Source: Paenirhodobacter hankyongi
GTDB lineage: Bacteria; Pseudomonadota; Alphaproteobacteria; Rhodobacterales; Rhodobacteraceae
DNA: 64,000 nt
Direction of reading: 5' to 3'
NCBI RefSeq assembly: GCF_003664585.1
Contig: NZ_RCHI01000006.1
Coordinates: forward strand, 1 to 64,000
Shown here: piece after piece, positions 33,672 to 40,633 of the stretch
Layout of the letters: every line of letters begins with the position of its first letter
Numbering within the stretch: position 1 is the first letter of the stretch
Position numbers and translations under genes: made by a program
Notes under the pieces: model-generated
Databases searched by the model: none
The model's input: the letters and a program-made list of their open reading frames with translations, nothing else
Told to the model about the DNA's origin: nothing

Positions 33672-34289
33672 TGTCAGGTCCTCTGCTGGAGGGCGGCCCG
33701 CAAGGGGTCGCGATGGGATGTGGGGAATGGCATTGCGGTCCGGATCGCGAGATCTGGCCGGCACGGATCGAAACGGAGCCAGCGAAACCGCCTGCGGCGC
33801 GCGACGGGGCGCAGGTGCGGGCAGAGTGCCGATGGCTCGGAGATGAGACGATGGAAGTGCCGGAACAGTTTCGGTCCGGGAGCGGAACACGGGAAGGCGG
33901 GTCCGCAGCGGCAGCGTCCTTGGTGCCGTGAAGAAAGGCTAGCGACACCGATTTTCGGTTTTCAAGGCCGGGCCGGGATGGGCGGGCGGAAAAGACGCGT
34001 TTTTCGGATCTGCGTCACGAAATGATTAATTTCTGACCGGCGTGGCCGGGGGAAATCTCGGTAACTGTGCGTTTTCCGAAAGATCCGGGTGGCGAATCGC
34101 GGCTCGGTTCCCCCTCGCACAGGCGCGTGCGTGCACGCGCGGGCGTGCAACCCGCGCGCGAAGTTCCTTTTCCAGGTGCCGTCGCCGCGGCCGAATCGCA
34201 TCGGTGGCATCCGGGCTGGGCCAGGGGCGCTTCGACGATGTTGTCGGGGTGTTTATTTCAAGTATTTGATATTAAATGATATATTTTTC
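33672..34289. other. Intergenic region between divergent urtA and amiE: no gene seen
   Basis: About 600 bases contain no convincing coding sequence. The first 300 are GC-rich with a short palindrome GCGTGCACGC near 34128-34137. The last 60 (34240-34310) are markedly AT-rich, the strongest composition drop in the window, and lead into the amiE promoter. No clear sigma-54 (-24/-12) element was found by eye; an urtA promoter must lie here but is not resolved. Confidence 0.5.
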
Positions 34290-34318
34290 TTGAAAAATCA
34301 TGGATTCGGGGTCGTAAT
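34290..34318 (+). promoter_or_regulatory. Candidate sigma-70 promoter of the amiEBCR leader
   Basis: TTGAAA (34290-34295, five of six matches to TTGACA), a 17-base spacer, then CGTAAT (34313-34318, four of six to TATAAT). Transcription would start near 34325, right before the first leader hairpin. Confidence 0.5.
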
Positions 34319-34326
34319 GAAGCGGC

Positions 34327-34357
34327 AGGGATCAACAGCGATCCCTCGGACAGCGAG
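34327..34357 (+). promoter_or_regulatory. Tandem leader hairpins, candidate AmiR (ANTAR) RNA target
   Basis: Hairpin 1 is AGGGATC-AACAGC-GATCCCT (34327-34346, 7-bp stem, six-base loop). Hairpin 2 is CTCG-GACAG-CGAG (34345-34357). Both loops contain ACAG, with A and G three positions apart. ANTAR proteins bind two small adjacent hairpins with conserved A and G in six-base loops and thereby stop a following terminator from forming. The second loop is five bases by simplest pairing, an imperfect match. Confidence 0.5.
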
Positions 34358-34361
34358 CAAG

Positions 34362-34409
34362 AGGGCTCTCTCACACGTCCCGATCCGGGCGTTGAGGAGC
34401 CCTTTCTTC
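34362..34409 (+). terminator. Leader terminator upstream of amiE
   Basis: AGGGCTC (34362-34368) pairs with GAGCCCT (34397-34403), followed by TTCTTCATT. An inner hairpin CCCG-ATC-CGGG (34379-34389) shortens the loop. It lies about 110 bases before the amiE start, where an antitermination-controlled attenuator should be. Confidence 0.55.
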
Positions 34410-34518
34410 ATTCCGGACCATGATCGGCCCCGGTCCAGCGAGACCGGAACGCGCCTTGCCGCGTGCCCGCCGCGTGTTCCCCGACATCACCCATCCGCCA
34501 ACAGGAAAGGTTCGCATC

Positions 34519-35562
34519 ATGCGACACGGAGATATCACCAGCACGGACGACACCGTCGGCGTCGCCGTCGTCAACTACAAGATCCCGCGGCTGCACACCC
34601 GCGCCGAGGTTCTGGAGAACGCACAGAAGATCGCCGACGTGGTCGTCGGGCTGAAGCAGGGCCTGCCGGGGCTCGATCTGGTGATCTTCCCCGAATACTC
34701 GACCATGGGCGTGATGTATGACGGCGACGAGATGATGGCGACCGCCGCCTCGATCCCCGGCGACGAGACCGAGATCTTCGCCCGCGCCTGCCGCAAGGCC
34801 AACACCTGGGGCGTGTTCTCGATCACCGGCGAGCGGCACGAGGAACACCCGAAGAAGGTGCCCTACAACACGCTGATCCTGATGAACAACAAGGGCGAGA
34901 TCGTGCAGAAGTATCGCAAGATCCTGCCCTGGACCCCGATCGAGGGCTGGTATCCCGGTGCCGGCACCTTCGTCAGCGAGGGCCCGAAGGGGATGAAGAT
35001 CTCGCTCATCATCTGCGATGACGGCAACTATCCCGAGATCTGGCGCGACTGCGCGATGAAGGGCGCCGAGCTGATCGTGCGCTGCCAGGGCTACATGTAC
35101 CCGGCCAAGGAACAGCAGATCACCATGGCGAAGGCGATGGCCTGGGCCAACGTCTCCTATGTCGCCGTCGCGAACTGCACCGGCTGGGACGGGGTCTATT
35201 CCTTCTTCGGCCACTCGACCATCTGCGGCTTCGACGGGCGCACGCTGGGCTCCTGCGCCGAGGAAGAGATGGGCGTGCAATATGCGCAGCTGTCAATCTC
35301 GCAGATCCGCGACGCGCGGCAGAACGACCAGTCGGCCAACCACCTCTTCAAGCTGCTCCACCGCGGCTATACCGGCGTCTACAACTCGGGCGACGGCGAC
35401 AAGGGCGTGGCCGATTGCCCGTTCGATTTCTACAAGACCTGGGTCACCGACGCGAAGAAGGCGCAGGAGAACGTCGAGGCCTTCACCCGGTCGACCCTGT
35501 CGACCGCCTGCTGTCCGATCGGCGGGCTGCCGAGCGGGCTGAAGGAGGAAGAGGCGCAATAA
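34519..35562 (+). CDS. amiE: Aliphatic amidase
   Basis: The 347-residue nitrilase-superfamily enzyme hydrolyses short aliphatic amides such as acetamide to the acid and ammonia. The catalytic triad falls exactly at the Pseudomonas aeruginosa positions: Glu59 (IFPEYS), Lys134 (KYRKILPW) and Cys166 ([11 protein letters not shown]). Length and the start MRHGDI are family-typical, and AGGAAAGG precedes the ATG. It is cytoplasmic. The gene heads amiEBCR and has its own terminator, so it should be the most abundant product. Confidence 0.96.
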
Positions 35563-35571
35563 TCCCCGACT

Positions 35572-35605
35572 GGCGGAGCGGACCCCGCCGCTCCGCCCCT
35601 TTTTC
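35572..35605 (+). terminator. Strong intrinsic terminator between amiE and amiB
   Basis: A perfect 10-bp stem GGCGGAGCGG / CCGCTCCGCC (35572-35581, 35588-35597) with a six-base loop is followed by CCTTTTTCCCTTT. It starts 10 bases after the amiE stop. Confidence 0.85.
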
Positions 35606-35625
35606 CCTTTCTTCCCGAGACGACC

Positions 35626-36732
35626 ATGCCTTTTCTCACCGACCGCATTGCGCAGACGCAGCGCGCGCAGAAACTTGCCGCTGCAATGAACGACGAAAAC
35701 CTCCTGCCGGCGGAGGCTGCGCCCCGCGCCGCCCCGCGCTTCATGCCGGCCTCGCGCTTCACCTTCGATCTGACGATGATCGAGCGGGAGCTGCGCGGCA
35801 ATATCGTCGGTCAGGACGAGATGATCGCCTCGGTGATGCGGATCATGACGGTGATCTGCGCCGACATCGGCGACCCGCGCAAGCCGCTGGCCTCGTTCCT
35901 GTTTGCCGGGCCCACGGGGGTCGGCAAGACCGAGACGGTGCGCGTCCTCGCCCGGGCGCTGCACGGCGATGCCGACGCCTTCTGCCGGGTCGACATGAAC
36001 ACCCTCGCCCAGGAGCATTATGCCGCCGCGCTGACCGGCGCGCCTCCGGGCTATGTCGGCTCGAAGGAGGGCACGACGATCCTCGATCAGGACAAGATCG
36101 AGGGCAGCCATGACCGCCCCGGCATCGTGCTGTTCGACGAGCTTGAAAAGGCGAGCGACGAGGTCGTGCTGGCGCTGCTCAACGTGCTCGACAACGGCAT
36201 CCTGACGGTCGCCTCGGGCGAGCGCACCTATTCCTTCCGCAACGCCATCGTGTTCATGACCACGAACCTTGGCGCAAGCGAGCTGATGGAACGGGCGGGC
36301 GTGACGAAACCCGCGGGCCGCGGCAAGCGCGTACAGCCGCAAACCGGGCCCGAGCTGGTGCTCGAGAAGCTGCTCAAGCGCTTCCCGCCCGAATTCGTCA
36401 ACCGCATCGACCAGATCGAGACCTTCAACGCGATCGGCACCGACTTCCTGCCGGCGATCGTCGAGGTCGAGATCGGCAAGCTGAACCGGCGGCTTCTGAA
36501 GCACGACTGCCATCTCGAGGTCGGGCCCGAGGTGATGCGCCATCTGGCCGAGCTTGGCTATGACAAGCGCTTCGGCGCGCGCGGGCTGCGCCGCACGATC
36601 CGCAAGCATCTCGAGTTTCCGCTGGCCGAATATCTGCTTTCTGCCGCCGCAACGGGCAGTTCGGTGAACCGCCGCATCATCACCGCGGTGCTCGAGGGGC
36701 AAACCTTGACATTCGTCGAGGGGGACGCCTGA
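35626..36732 (+). CDS. amiB: ClpB/ClpX-like AAA+ ATPase AmiB
   Basis: The 368-residue single AAA+ module resembles the second ATPase domain of ClpB. Walker A GPTGVGKT is at 95-102, then GAPPGYVGSKEGT (pore loop), Walker B IVLFDELEKAS, sensor 1 FMTTNLGASEL and sensor 2 GYDKRFGARGLRR. A ClpB-type C-terminal small domain follows. The P. aeruginosa amidase operon encodes a chaperone-like ATPase in this position. There is no ClpP-binding IGF-type loop that I can recognise. Its client is unknown; AmiE, or the AmiC-AmiR complex, are candidates. Confidence 0.88.
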   Translation: MPFLTDRIAQTQRAQKLAAAMNDENLLPAEAAPRAAPRFMPASRFTFDLTMIERELRGNIVGQDEMIASVMRIMTVICADIGDPRKPLASFLFAGPTGVGKTETVRVLARALHGDADAFCRVDMNTLAQEHYAAALTGAPPGYVGSKEGTTILDQDKIEGSHDRPGIVLFDELEKASDEVVLALLNVLDNGILTVASGERTYSFRNAIVFMTTNLGASELMERAGVTKPAGRGKRVQPQTGPELVLEKLLKRFPPEFVNRIDQIETFNAIGTDFLPAIVEVEIGKLNRRLLKHDCHLEVGPEVMRHLAELGYDKRFGARGLRRTIRKHLEFPLAEYLLSAAATGSSVNRRIITAVLEGQTLTFVEGDA

Positions 36733-36765
36733 GTGAGACTGCGCCAGGGGAATATCAAGGGCGTC

Positions 36766-37914
36766 ATGTCTGACTGTTGGAAAGTTGGGATCCTGTTCTC
36801 GGAAACCGGATCGACCGCAAATGTCGAGCTGTCGCAGCTGCATGGCGCGATGCTGGCCATCGCGGAAATCAACGCGGCGGGGGGGGTGCTCGGGCGCCCG
36901 ATCGAGGCGGTGCGCTATGACCCCGGCTCGGAGCCGCGCGACTATGGCCGTCTGGCCGAGAAGCTGATCGTCGAGGACCGGATCAACACGCTCTTTGCCT
37001 GCTACAAGTCCTCGGCGCGCAAGGAGGTGCTGCCGGTGGTCGAGCGGCGCAATGCGCTGTTCTTCTACCCGACGATCTACGAGGGTTTCGAGTTCTCGCC
37101 GAACGTCTTCTATGGCGGTGCCGTGCCTAACCAGAACAGCGTGCCGCTGGCGCGCTATCTGATGGCGAATTACGGGCCGCGGATCTATTTCGTCGGTTCG
37201 GATTACATCTATCCGCACGAGTCGAACCGGGTGATGCGCCATGTTCTGCGCCTGTCGGGCGGCGAGGTGGTCGAGGAGGAATATGTGCCCCTCGACAGCG
37301 GCCCGGGTGCCTTCGACGCGATCGTCGCGCGCATTCTCGAGCAGCGCCCCGATGCGATCTTCTCGACCGTGGTCGGGCAGGACAGTGCCGAGTTCTATCG
37401 CGCCTATCACCGCGCCGGCGGCCGGGGGGGAGATATTCCGGTGGCCAGCCTGACCACGAACGAGGCCGATGTCGCCGAGATCGGCGCCGAGGTGATGGCG
37501 GGGCATCTGACCGCCGCGCCCTATTTCCGCACGCTCGAGACGCCGCGCAACGCGCAGTATCTGGAAAGCTATGCCCGGCTGCACGGCGATCTGACTGATG
37601 TCACCAGCTGCGGCGAGGCGGCCTATATCCAGATGCATTTCTTCGCGCAGGCGCTGCGCGATTGCGGCTGCGACGACACCGATGCGCTGCGCGCGACGCT
37701 GGTCGGGCAGTCGTTCGAGGCGCCGCAGGGCCGGGTGACGATCGATCCCGACAATCAGCACACCTACCTGCATTCCCGCATCGCGCGGATCGACGAGGAG
37801 GGCGAATACGTGATCGAGCACGAGGTTCCGATGGCGATCAAGCCGGACCCCTATCTGGTGATGCCCGCCTCGGCCGACCTGATCGTGCAGGGGCGCAAGA
37901 TCAGTCGCGGGTGA
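36766..37914 (+). CDS. amiC: Amide-sensing negative regulator AmiC
   Basis: The 382-residue periplasmic-binding-protein fold has no export signal, so it stays in the cytoplasm and sequesters AmiR until an amide binds. It follows P. aeruginosa AmiC closely: VGILFSETGSTANVELS, LFACYKSSARKEVLPVVERR, FYPTIYEGFEFSPNVFYGG, VGSDYIYPHESNRVMRH and FSTVVGQDSAEFYRAY. ATG 36766 gives an AmiC-like N-terminus. A GTG at 36733 adds 11 residues and has a stronger Shine-Dalgarno (GAGGGGGA at 36718-36725) coupled to the amiB stop, so either start may be used. Confidence 0.92.
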   Translation: MSDCWKVGILFSETGSTANVELSQLHGAMLAIAEINAAGGVLGRPIEAVRYDPGSEPRDYGRLAEKLIVEDRINTLFACYKSSARKEVLPVVERRNALFFYPTIYEGFEFSPNVFYGGAVPNQNSVPLARYLMANYGPRIYFVGSDYIYPHESNRVMRHVLRLSGGEVVEEEYVPLDSGPGAFDAIVARILEQRPDAIFSTVVGQDSAEFYRAYHRAGGRGGDIPVASLTTNEADVAEIGAEVMAGHLTAAPYFRTLETPRNAQYLESYARLHGDLTDVTSCGEAAYIQMHFFAQALRDCGCDDTDALRATLVGQSFEAPQGRVTIDPDNQHTYLHSRIARIDEEGEYVIEHEVPMAIKPDPYLVMPASADLIVQGRKISRG

Positions 37915-37921
37915 GGGGGAG

Positions 37922-38572
37922 ATGACCGACTTCGTCCGCACCCTGCGGGACCTGAACATCGCCGTCGTGCACCCGTTCGACCGCACGGCGGAAGAGCTGC
38001 GCCAGCAGCTCAGCCGCATCGGCTGCGTGCACGACGCCTTCTGGCCGCCGCCGAAGACGCTCGCCGAGAAATACGATGTCGTCTTCGTCGACATGGCCGA
38101 GGGCAGCGCGAAATACCTGCGCGCGATGATCACGCGCGCGCGCACGGAGCTGCCGACGATCATCGCCATCGTCGGTTACGAGAACCCCTCGGTTCTGGCG
38201 CAGCTGAGCGAGATCGGCGCGCATGGCATCCTGACCAAGCCGCTGCGCGCGATCGGGGTGATGAGCGCGATCGTCATGGCGCGGCAATGCTGGAGCGAGC
38301 AGAACGCGCTGCGCGAGGAAAACGAGAAGATCCGCCGCAAGCTGGAGACCATGCAGACGATCAGCGATGCGAAACGGATCCTGATGCAGCACCATGGCGT
38401 CGACGACCGCGAGGCCTATGAGATCATCCGCAAGCACGCGATGTCGCGGCGCACGACGACGGTCGAGATCGCGCAGGCGATCATCACCGCCGATGACATG
38501 CTGAGCAATCTCAAGCCCGCGCCGGGTGCCGCCGCGCGCAAGACGCGCATTCCGAAACCAGAGCAGGACTGA
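37922..38572 (+). CDS. amiR: Transcription antiterminator AmiR (ANTAR domain)
   Basis: The 216-residue protein has an N-terminal pseudo-receiver domain (DLNIAVVHPFDRTAEELRQQ), a central coiled coil (EQNALREENEKIRRKLETMQ) and a C-terminal ANTAR RNA-binding domain (about 145-195, ISDAKRILMQHHGVDDREAY, EIIRKHAMSRR). In P. aeruginosa AmiR is released from AmiC by amide and prevents termination in the amiE leader. It follows amiC by seven bases with GAGGGGGAG upstream. No amiS follows. Confidence 0.92.
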   Translation: MTDFVRTLRDLNIAVVHPFDRTAEELRQQLSRIGCVHDAFWPPPKTLAEKYDVVFVDMAEGSAKYLRAMITRARTELPTIIAIVGYENPSVLAQLSEIGAHGILTKPLRAIGVMSAIVMARQCWSEQNALREENEKIRRKLETMQTISDAKRILMQHHGVDDREAYEIIRKHAMSRRTTTVEIAQAIITADDMLSNLKPAPGAAARKTRIPKPEQD

Positions 38573-38659: not shown

Positions 38660-38734
38660 TGGCAGCCCGTAGGGGAGTCGAACCCCTCTTTTCAGGTTGA
38701 AAACCTGACGTCCTAACCGATAGACGAACGGGCC
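38660..38734 (-). tRNA. tRNA-Glu (UUC anticodon)
   Basis: On the minus strand the acceptor stem GGCCCGT pairs with ACGGGCT and CCA is encoded. The D-arm contains GTCTATCGGTTAGGAC. The anticodon stem TCAGG/CCTGA encloses the loop TTTTCAA, giving UUC. The T-arm is AGGGG-TTCGACT-CCCCT. Length is 75 with CCA. Confidence 0.97.
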
Positions 38735-38890: not shown

Positions 38891-40633
38891 TCAGGCACGC
38901 GCGGCATCGTCGAGGCGCAGCTGCACCTTGCGCCGCCCGCCCCAGGTGTTGATCTCTAGCTTGCCCGCGAGGTGAAAGCGCCCCGCTCCGCCCGCGCTCA
39001 GCGTCGGGCCGAGCGGGCCGTCGAAGGCGCCGAAGGCCACCGCTTCGATCCGCGATCCGAGCCCGTCGCCCAGCGAGAAGCGCAGGTGGCTTTCGCCGAT
39101 CCGGCGCGGGCCGGTCACCTCCATGTCGGGGAAGGCGAAACGCGGGGCAGGGGCGCCCTGGCCGAAGGGGCCGGCGCGCTCGAGCTCCTCGATCAGCTGG
39201 GCGGTGGCGGCGCCGGGCATCAGGAGCCCGTCGAGGCGCAGATCGCGCGGCCCGCCGGCGCCGGCGCCCTGCCGCGCCAGCAGCTCGCTCAGCCGCGCCA
39301 TGGCGGGTTCCAGCTGCTCCGCCGCGACGGTGAGGCCGGCGGCCATCCGGTGCCCGCCGCCCTTCAGCAGCAGCCCCTCGGCCGCGACGCGCTGCACCGA
39401 AGCACCAAGGTCGACGCCAGCGACCGAGCGGGCCGAGCCCTTGCCGATGCCGTTCTCGAGCCCGATCACCACCGCCGGACGGTTCGTCGCCTCCTTCAGC
39501 CGGGCGGCAACGATGCCCACCACGCCCGGGTGCCAGCCCTCGCCCGCCGCCCAGACGAGCGGCGCGTCAAGCCCGCGCTCCTCGGCCTGGGCAAGGGCGG
39601 CATCGCGCACCCGGTTCTCGATCTCGCGGCGCTCGGAATTCAGCTGGTCGAGCCGGGCGGCGAGCGCCTCGGCCTCGGCCCGGTCGTCGGTCGACAAAAG
39701 CCGCGCGCCAAGATCGGCCGCGCCGATCCGCCCGCCCGCATTCACCCGCGGGCCAAGGACGAAGCCCAGATGATAGGCCGAGGGCGCCTGATCGAGCCGC
39801 GCGACGTCGGAGAGCGCGACCAGCCCCGGCCGCTCGCGCCGCGCCATCACCTTCAGCCCTTGCCGCACCAGCGCCCGGTTCACCCCGATCAGAGGCGCGA
39901 CATCGGCCACCGTCGCCAGCGCCACGAGGTCGAGAAGCCCCATCAGGTCGGGCCCCTTCACGCCCTTCTCGCGCAGCTGCCGGTTCGCCTCGACCAGCAT
40001 CAGGAAGACGACCGAGGCGGCGCAGAGATGACCGAGCGAGCCGTCCTCGTCGAGCCGGTTCGGGTTCACCACGGCCAGCGCCTCGGGCAGGGTCTCGGCG
40101 CCGAGGTGGTGGTCGAGGATCACCACGTCGGCGGGTTTCGCCGCGGCCACCGGCTCGTGGCTGAGCGTGCCGCAGTCGACGCAGACGATCAGCGGGTGGT
40201 CCTTGGCCAGCGCCTGCATCGCCGGCACATTCGGGCCATAGCCCTCGTCGATGCGGTCGGGGATATAGAGCGTCGCCTCGCGGCCTATGGCGCGCAGCCA
40301 GGTCAGCAGAAGCGCCGCCGAGGACCCGCCGTCGACGTCGTAATCGGCAAAGACGGCGATGCGCTCGCGCCCGTCGATCGCGCGCAGGAAGCGGGCGGCG
40401 GCCTTTTCCATGTCGCGCAGGCTGCGCGGGTCGGGCAGCAGCTCGCGCAGGGTGGGTTCGAGGAAGCCCGCGGCCTCTTCGGGGGCGACGCCGCGGGCGA
40501 CGAGCACGCGGGCAAGCGGCAGGGGCAGGCGCGTCTCGCGCGCCATCGCCTCGGCAAGGCGGTCGGCCTCGTCCGTGGGGCCGATCCAGCGCCGCCCGGT
40601 CAGCGACGCTTCGACATCAAGGAATGCACTCAT
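38891..40633 (-). CDS. recJ: Single-stranded-DNA-specific exonuclease RecJ
   Basis: The 580-residue 5'-3' exonuclease acts in recombination and mismatch repair. DHH-domain motifs are IAVFADYDVDGGSSAALLL, VDCGTLSHEP, ILDHHLG and VNPNR. The DHHA1 domain shows WHPGVVGIVAARLKEATNRP and GGGHRMAAGLTV, and a C-terminal OB fold follows. Motif II reads GTLSH where many RecJ have GTxxx. Met 40633 has GGGAAGGG just upstream. Confidence 0.95.
   Translation of the reverse strand: MSAFLDVEASLTGRRWIGPTDEADRLAEAMARETRLPLPLARVLVARGVAPEEAAGFLEPTLRELLPDPRSLRDMEKAAARFLRAIDGRERIAVFADYDVDGGSSAALLLTWLRAIGREATLYIPDRIDEGYGPNVPAMQALAKDHPLIVCVDCGTLSHEPVAAAKPADVVILDHHLGAETLPEALAVVNPNRLDEDGSLGHLCAASVVFLMLVEANRQLREKGVKGPDLMGLLDLVALATVADVAPLIGVNRALVRQGLKVMARRERPGLVALSDVARLDQAPSAYHLGFVLGPRVNAGGRIGAADLGARLLSTDDRAEAEALAARLDQLNSERREIENRVRDAALAQAEERGLDAPLVWAAGEGWHPGVVGIVAARLKEATNRPAVVIGLENGIGKGSARSVAGVDLGASVQRVAAEGLLLKGGGHRMAAGLTVAAEQLEPAMARLSELLARQGAGAGGPRDLRLDGLLMPGAATAQLIEELERAGPFGQGAPAPRFAFPDMEVTGPRRIGESHLRFSLGDGLGSRIEAVAFGAFDGPLGPTLSAGGAGRFHLAGKLEINTWGGRRKVQLRLDDAARA

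Follow-up and report, generated by a model that had tools for sequence, protein, structure and literature searches.

How is the aliphatic amidase operon in the stretch of DNA analyzed here (64,000 nucleotides, referred to as the window) switched on and off? The operon, amiE-amiB-amiC-amiR, lies on the plus strand (34519-38572), with urtA, a gene for a urea-type transporter, divergent from it. A preliminary description had proposed that the leader upstream of amiE is an antitermination switch operated by the ANTAR protein AmiR. Comparison with relatives strongly supports this proposal, as the leader layout is conserved before amiR-containing operons and its stems covary. We put the probability that AmiR operates the amiE leader, through predicted RNA binding, as a transcription-attenuation switch under the control of AmiC and amides at about 0.88. 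What can be observed directly are the anatomy of leader and operon, their conservation, the covariation, the predicted folding order and the gene content.

AmiR combines a pseudo-receiver with an ANTAR domain, the latter as noted earlier, and its partner AmiC is encoded within the same operon. Judging from its likeness to Pseudomonas AmiC, the amiC product probably senses amides; when a signal-peptide family was sought in it, none matched. Amidase orthologs are patchily distributed (10 of 394 genomes of the window's family at E ≤ 1e-100), and the same operon occurs in Mameliella, Antarcticimicrobium, Roseovarius, Thalassovita, Gemmobacter and Pseudohalocynthiibacter. In the alphaproteobacterial operons read, the leader is most often followed by urt-like transporter genes and then by amiE, amiB, amiC and amiR; unlike this transporter-first arrangement, the leader is directly 5' of amiE in the window and in L169. 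Among the 17 same-genus genomes searched, none holds a close AmiE ortholog, the best match being 37% identical, and the ami cluster may for this reason have arrived recently or have survived here. Directly 3' of amiR lies a tRNA-Glu gene (38660-38734, minus strand).

Table 1 Features of the amiE leader and operon, numbered by position in the window.
Feature	Position	Strand	Description
A+T-rich stretch, possible UP element	34250..34289	+	from sequence; putative function
Promoter (predicted)	34290..34318	+	-35 TTGAAA 34290-34295, N17, -10 CGTAAT 34313-34318
Hairpin P1	34327..34346	+	AGGGATC-AACAGC-GATCCCT, 7 pairs, loop AACAGC 34334-34339
Linker P1-P2	34347..34354	+	8 bases (7-13 bases in 19 aligned alphaproteobacterial leaders)
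Hairpin P2 (antiterminator)	34355..34368	+	GAGC-AAGAGG-GCTC
Intrinsic terminator stem-loop	34360..34405	+	mutually exclusive with P2; tail TTTCTTCATT 34403-34412
Ribosome-binding-like sequence before amiE	34503..34510	+	AGGAAAGG; from sequence, by eye
amiE	34519..35562	+	aliphatic amidase; NCBIfam aliphatic amidase, 680 bits
amiB	35626..36732	+	AAA (ClpB-like) ATPase
amiC	36733..37914	+	amide-sensing binding protein (probable); best PDB match AmiC 1pea/1qo0, E 1.7e-101
amiR	37922..38572	+	AmiR_N pseudo-receiver and ANTAR RNA-binding domain; AmiR 1qo0_D, E 2.2e-33

For comparison, 21 alphaproteobacterial leaders were examined (that of the window, L169, L225-L228, L230-L232 and L251-L262), which had initially been chosen by eye for P1 and P2, a bias toward that structure. 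The order promoter, P1, P2, terminator is found in 20 of them, the exception being L230 from Gemmobacter, which has amiR and no recognisable P1. Of the 21 operons, 20 were confirmed to contain amiR; for L253 (genome G1412) the contig ends first. The aligned set of 19 leaders lacks L230 and also L257, a near copy of L232 with one mismatch in 160. The gammaproteobacterial leader L166 is misaligned and was kept out of the counts, as were L229, L100, L106, L191 and L195 with their other spacing and the fragment L316. A named-genome scan, of which the best 80 of 552 loci were considered, yielded an AmiR match at 11 of these 80.

The TTGAAA-N17-CGTAAT sequence noted earlier is present exactly as described and is promoter-like by its conservation in relatives. 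TTG occurs 34-38 bases 5' of P1 in all 19 aligned leaders, and at 17-base spacing 18 of 19 have T as the last base of the -10 element and 18 of 19 have A as its second, the one leader without this A being that of the window. TTG was sought over a nine-base range and a single match could be accidental, which can hardly be said of the 19 together. The default promoter scan called no promoter, so the assignment rests on conservation. From the promoter position in the 19 leaders, transcription should start near 34325, just before P1. Further upstream, G+C content is 30, 15 and 33% in 40-base windows starting at 34240, 34260 and 34280. A sigma-54 reading of a conserved TTGCA box was dropped by eye, as the -24 place has no GG.

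The first hairpin of the preliminary description is present and is conserved as P1, with 99.1% of cells paired in the 19 leaders and changes on both sides in four of the six pairs counted. For P2, 100% of cells are paired and one of four pairs shows changes on both sides; P2 alone has a single covarying pair because the terminator also constrains its 3' arm. Taken together, P1 and P2 are paired in 99.5% of 190 cells versus 90.6% in shuffles, and reach a covariation score of 0.402 versus 0.202, neither value being attained by any of 500 shuffles. When the partners were slid by one to three columns, pairing fell to 51.1% or less. RNAalifold applied to 20 sequences (the 19 and L166) recovered P1 and the terminator de novo, with compensatory changes in 15 of 24 pairs, and for these two elements the unaided fold is free of the bias of picking by eye. 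The covariation that had been called for in relatives is thus present for P1, P2 and the terminator, and it is the previously drawn second hairpin that fails. The letters of this hairpin, CTCG-GACAG-CGAG, do occur at 34345-34357, but the conserved second hairpin is P2. As a hairpin 2 the former has 53.9% of cells paired, close to the shuffle mean of 51.4% and equaled or exceeded in 54 of 500 shuffles; it is missing from the lowest-energy fold and appears in a three-pair version in some prefix folds. Since the second ACAG hairpin is not conserved, the supposed tandem of ACAG loops is an incidental repeat. The two imperfections listed for it, bases shared between the hairpins and a five-base loop, arose because the wrong second hairpin had been drawn: P2 has a six-base loop and no bases in common with P1. 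Two small hairpins with six-base loops, the dual hexaloop of ANTAR targets, hence stand upstream of amiE.

The terminator stem expected before amiE was found as well, with a weak U-tract. The default scan, with its loop limit of 8 bases, did not list this terminator. The 3' arm of P2 and five of its six loop bases sit inside the 5' arm of the terminator, so that in the predicted folds the two are mutually exclusive, as in ANTAR leaders. Folding of 34325-34420, as had been suggested, gave a structure far more stable than its shuffles (z -4.59, 0 of 200 as stable). In prefix folding, P1 plus P2 is the best structure up to 34395 and the terminator from 34400 onward; the final energies are -42.5 kcal/mol with the terminator versus -30.6 kcal/mol with P2 forced. 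This predicted order, with P1 and P2 folding first, would give a protein that holds P2 an interval in which to determine the outcome.

In the Pseudomonas system, AmiC is described as releasing AmiR upon binding of a small amide (PMC3369931). Inducer, AmiC-AmiR release and RNA binding at the window locus would follow this system together with EutV and NasR. RNA polymerase would start just before P1. Without inducer, AmiC would keep AmiR inactive, P2 would be transient, and the terminator would take over the 3' arm of P2 and end transcription before amiE. With amide bound to AmiC, AmiR would be freed, its ANTAR domains would bind P1 first and P2 next, the terminator would be blocked and amiE-amiB-amiC-amiR would be transcribed.

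A real terminator whose P1 and P2 are targets of an ANTAR protein other than AmiR is very unlikely. Such proteins do exist, as the host genome encodes two besides AmiR, a NasT-like one and the ANTAR member of an AmiC/ANTAR pair on contig C8. Against their role as binders, the leader stands before AmiR's own operon, the loops differ from those of three NasT-like leaders described below, and screening at E ≤ 0.001 detected no ANTAR protein besides AmiR in 12 genomes that carry a leader of this kind, several of them drafts. The 12 comprise ten genomes of the aligned set (G1334, G1338, G1339, G203, G148, G1375, G1416, G1361, G1394 and G1406), G1413 with a near copy, and the gammaproteobacterial G1336. 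Because of these 12 genomes, AmiR is the likely binder. The pair on contig C8 (L003, genome G000) is a second AmiC-like/ANTAR pair of the host and by eye lies beside transporter-like genes; an RNA target for it was sought and not found.

Slightly less probable still is that chance hairpins lie by an ordinary terminator and amiE is under promoter control alone. A layout filter, written after the motif was known, detected P1, P2 and terminator in none of 20,000 sequences obtained by dinucleotide shuffling of 34290-34518, and fired in three of 1110 tiles of the window, corresponding to two places, the amiE leader and a false positive near 40527 inside recJ. A covariance model built from 18 leaders with the window excluded found the window leader with 24.9 bits (E 3.4e-5 in 64 kb) as the best match of its 3.8 Mb genome (E 0.002), 6.7 bits above the next best (18.2 bits, E 0.15). 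For this next-best match, considered as another AmiR target in the host genome, tblastn of its 3 kb locus revealed no amide-operon gene; nor was a second AmiR target seen on the divergent urtA strand. When the 394 family genomes were searched with stricter filters, which lose weak matches, 13 had a match at E ≤ 0.01. Six of these, all strong, are no test because their genomes supplied the model (for G085 a conclusion from a shared contig), and one is that of the window. In the remaining six, all weak, the fetched 3 kb held no amide-operon gene, and they are taken as chance matches, about four being expected; weak matches elsewhere in the 394 genomes are likewise about as frequent as E predicts. 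Matches in G264 (28.0 bits) and G151 (24.9 bits), at places with no recognised operon, beat or equal the window leader, so the model score alone is not decisive and the case leans on the place before amiE. As a negative control, the best E in 69 further amiE loci without an AmiR match was 0.73, while the best in five amiR-bearing gammaproteobacterial loci, completing the 74 tested, was 0.18. Gammaproteobacterial leaders were matched by the alphaproteobacterial model at E 0.027 (L166), 0.27 (L195) and 0.18 (L106); in the latter two cases the match covered the second hairpin alone or involved another first hairpin. The modest score, the weak U-tract and similar chance matches elsewhere thus speak for coincidence; position, spacing and covariation, alike in 19 aligned leaders, speak against it. 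Least probable of all is a ligand-binding riboswitch such as guanidine-II, which also has two small hairpins and would suit a place before a nitrogen operon, given that the six-base loops are conserved, an ANTAR gene lies in the same operon, and Rfam had no match to the leader, neither at the gathering threshold in the whole window (one match, a tRNA) nor within 34200-34560 when E values as high as 10 were allowed.

Returning to AmiR as the preferred regulator, we compared the loops with those of known ANTAR targets. These carry A at position 1 and G at position 4 (A1 and G4) in both loops (PMC3369931, PMC3369936, PMC7496416, PMC8934654). G4 is reported essential for EutV and NasR. In Enterococcus faecalis eut leaders the linker measures 5-12 bases (PMC3369931). 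The linker of the window falls within this range (8 bases; 7-13 in the 19 leaders). All 19 leaders have A1 and a closing C-G pair in P1 as well as in P2, so that the loss of the loops, which would have spoken against the switch, is not observed. AA opens the loop in 19 of 19 for P2 and 17 of 19 for P1, where G5 (16 of 19) and C6 (17 of 19) are also frequent. G4 occurs in 2 of 19 P1 loops, in 5 of 19 P2 loops and in both loops of no leader, the window having AACAGC and AAGAGG. The strict published motif with G4 in both loops is therefore absent from the window leader and from all 19, and this, rather than the reason first given, is the real departure from the consensus. By their sequences, the loops represent a variant code in which A1 and the C-G closing pair are kept and G4 is given up.

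In EutV, Arg142 helps to hold the flipped G4, and Lys143 and Lys147 extend to the hairpin at the other chain. These places were mapped by alignment, the EutV chain index presumably being the paper number plus two, and L106 and L166 were left out of the AmiR residue reads. The three places read [MVIL]-Q-[DE] in 20 of 20 AmiRs of the window group (one a near copy), Arg, Lys, Arg in nine of nine NasT-like proteins, and Gln, Val/Ala, Arg/Lys in three Pseudomonas AmiRs. The label NasT suits three of these proteins by their ANTAR and receiver domains, the receiver scoring below the Pfam cut-off, and by their neighbouring genes. A pattern search of nine loci for leaders of the NasT-like group gave no match in four; two candidates (L327 and L330) were dropped by eye for want of a U-rich tail, and three of the five matches were kept (L272, L273 and L328). 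All three have G4 in both loops and linkers of 26-32 bases; the loops are AACGGG/AAGGTC, AATGGC/AACGCC and AACGCC/AAAGCC in G1333, G1332 and G030, genomes which also carry window-type AmiR leaders. L328, with an extra hexaloop hairpin (AGCGAT) between its two counted ones, lies between two genes for NMT1-like binding proteins, and the gene order at L272 and L273 is alike by eye. It is conceivable, if somewhat doubtful, that the AmiR branch of the window has a changed, readable ANTAR recognition code with G4 given up, as opposed to the NasT-like Arg-Lys-Arg. The link of residues and loops is suggested by a contrast between groups, few of which are independent, and is not proof. L225 and L262 do not fit a simple rule: P1 carries G4 there, and AmiR is nonetheless of the changed type. 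A further leader (L168:3100-3300, order amiC-amiR-leader-urtA) has the loops AGCGGC (P1) and ATGGAA (P2), with A1 and G4 in both. The AmiR near it reads Val-Arg-Gln, which, beside G4 in both loops, speaks against a simple Arg142-G4 rule. If true, the code change would keep two antitermination circuits of one cell apart. Such natural protein-RNA pairs lend themselves to studying ANTAR loop choice and circuit separation in multi-ANTAR cells. The A1/G4 loop rule for finding ANTAR targets is suggested to miss a branch.

Several loci seen in passing differ from this pattern. L229 from Marinobacter sp. ELB17 is a gammaproteobacterial cousin with P1 GAGTC-AATGTG-GACTT, an 18-base linker and P2 GGGC-ATAGAA-GCCC before a terminator. 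By eye, L153 (9060-9235), L154 (8850-9030) and L155, from three related alphaproteobacteria, have a P2-like hairpin, GGGC-[AG]AAAAC-GCCC, between amiR and urtA, with no U-tract; its 3' arm CCCGA could pair with TCGGG at the ribosome-binding sequence before the start codon, and a translational ANTAR switch is possible there. A second AmiE type, about 75% identical, occurs in L322, L323, L324 and L325 with an ANTAR gene about 5-12 kb away, whose specificity places read Q/L/V, K/R, K/R; leaders sought near these ANTAR genes (G021, G164, G178 and G1382) were not found.

The mechanism as such is already known; what is new is one corrected hairpin and a variant loop code. The matches listed, from literature coverage mostly outside subscription journals, included no published alphaproteobacterial AmiR leader, and the present work widens the founding AmiR system to include amide operons of the alphaproteobacterial family to which the window belongs, with a covarying, searchable RNA model. 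In an alphaproteobacterium, the Paracoccus nasA leader is likewise an attenuation leader under an ANTAR protein, NasT, with another regulator and signal than here (PMC5424462). With the targets of EutV, NasR and NasT (PMC3369931, PMC8934654, PMC7496416), the window leader shares two six-base-loop hairpins, A1, the C-G closing pair, the overlap of P2 and terminator and a short linker. It differs from them in lacking G4 in both of its loops, and none of the 19 leaders has G4 in more than one loop. The Pseudomonas AmiC-AmiR/amiE system, the founding ANTAR system, has the same operon, amiE-amiB-amiC-amiR; in most relatives of the window, a transporter gene comes first after the leader, unlike in Pseudomonas. 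The leaders from Pseudomonas (L100, L191 and L195) and Alloalcanivorax (L106) have an early hairpin and a P2, GAGC-AAATGR-GCTC, over the terminator arm as in the window, with a linker of 30-32 bases versus 8. Their P1 loops (AGCGTC, AACGTC or AACGGC) have G4 in four of four, whereas P1 of the window lacks it; their P2 loops (AAATGA or AAATGG) have no G4. The P. aeruginosa amiE leader is stated to have A1 and G4 in both loops (PMC3369931, PMC3369936); relative to the four fetched leaders, either another hairpin was drawn or the species differs. In the protein, the Arg142 position is occupied by Gln and the Tyr164 position by His in the three Pseudomonas AmiRs read.
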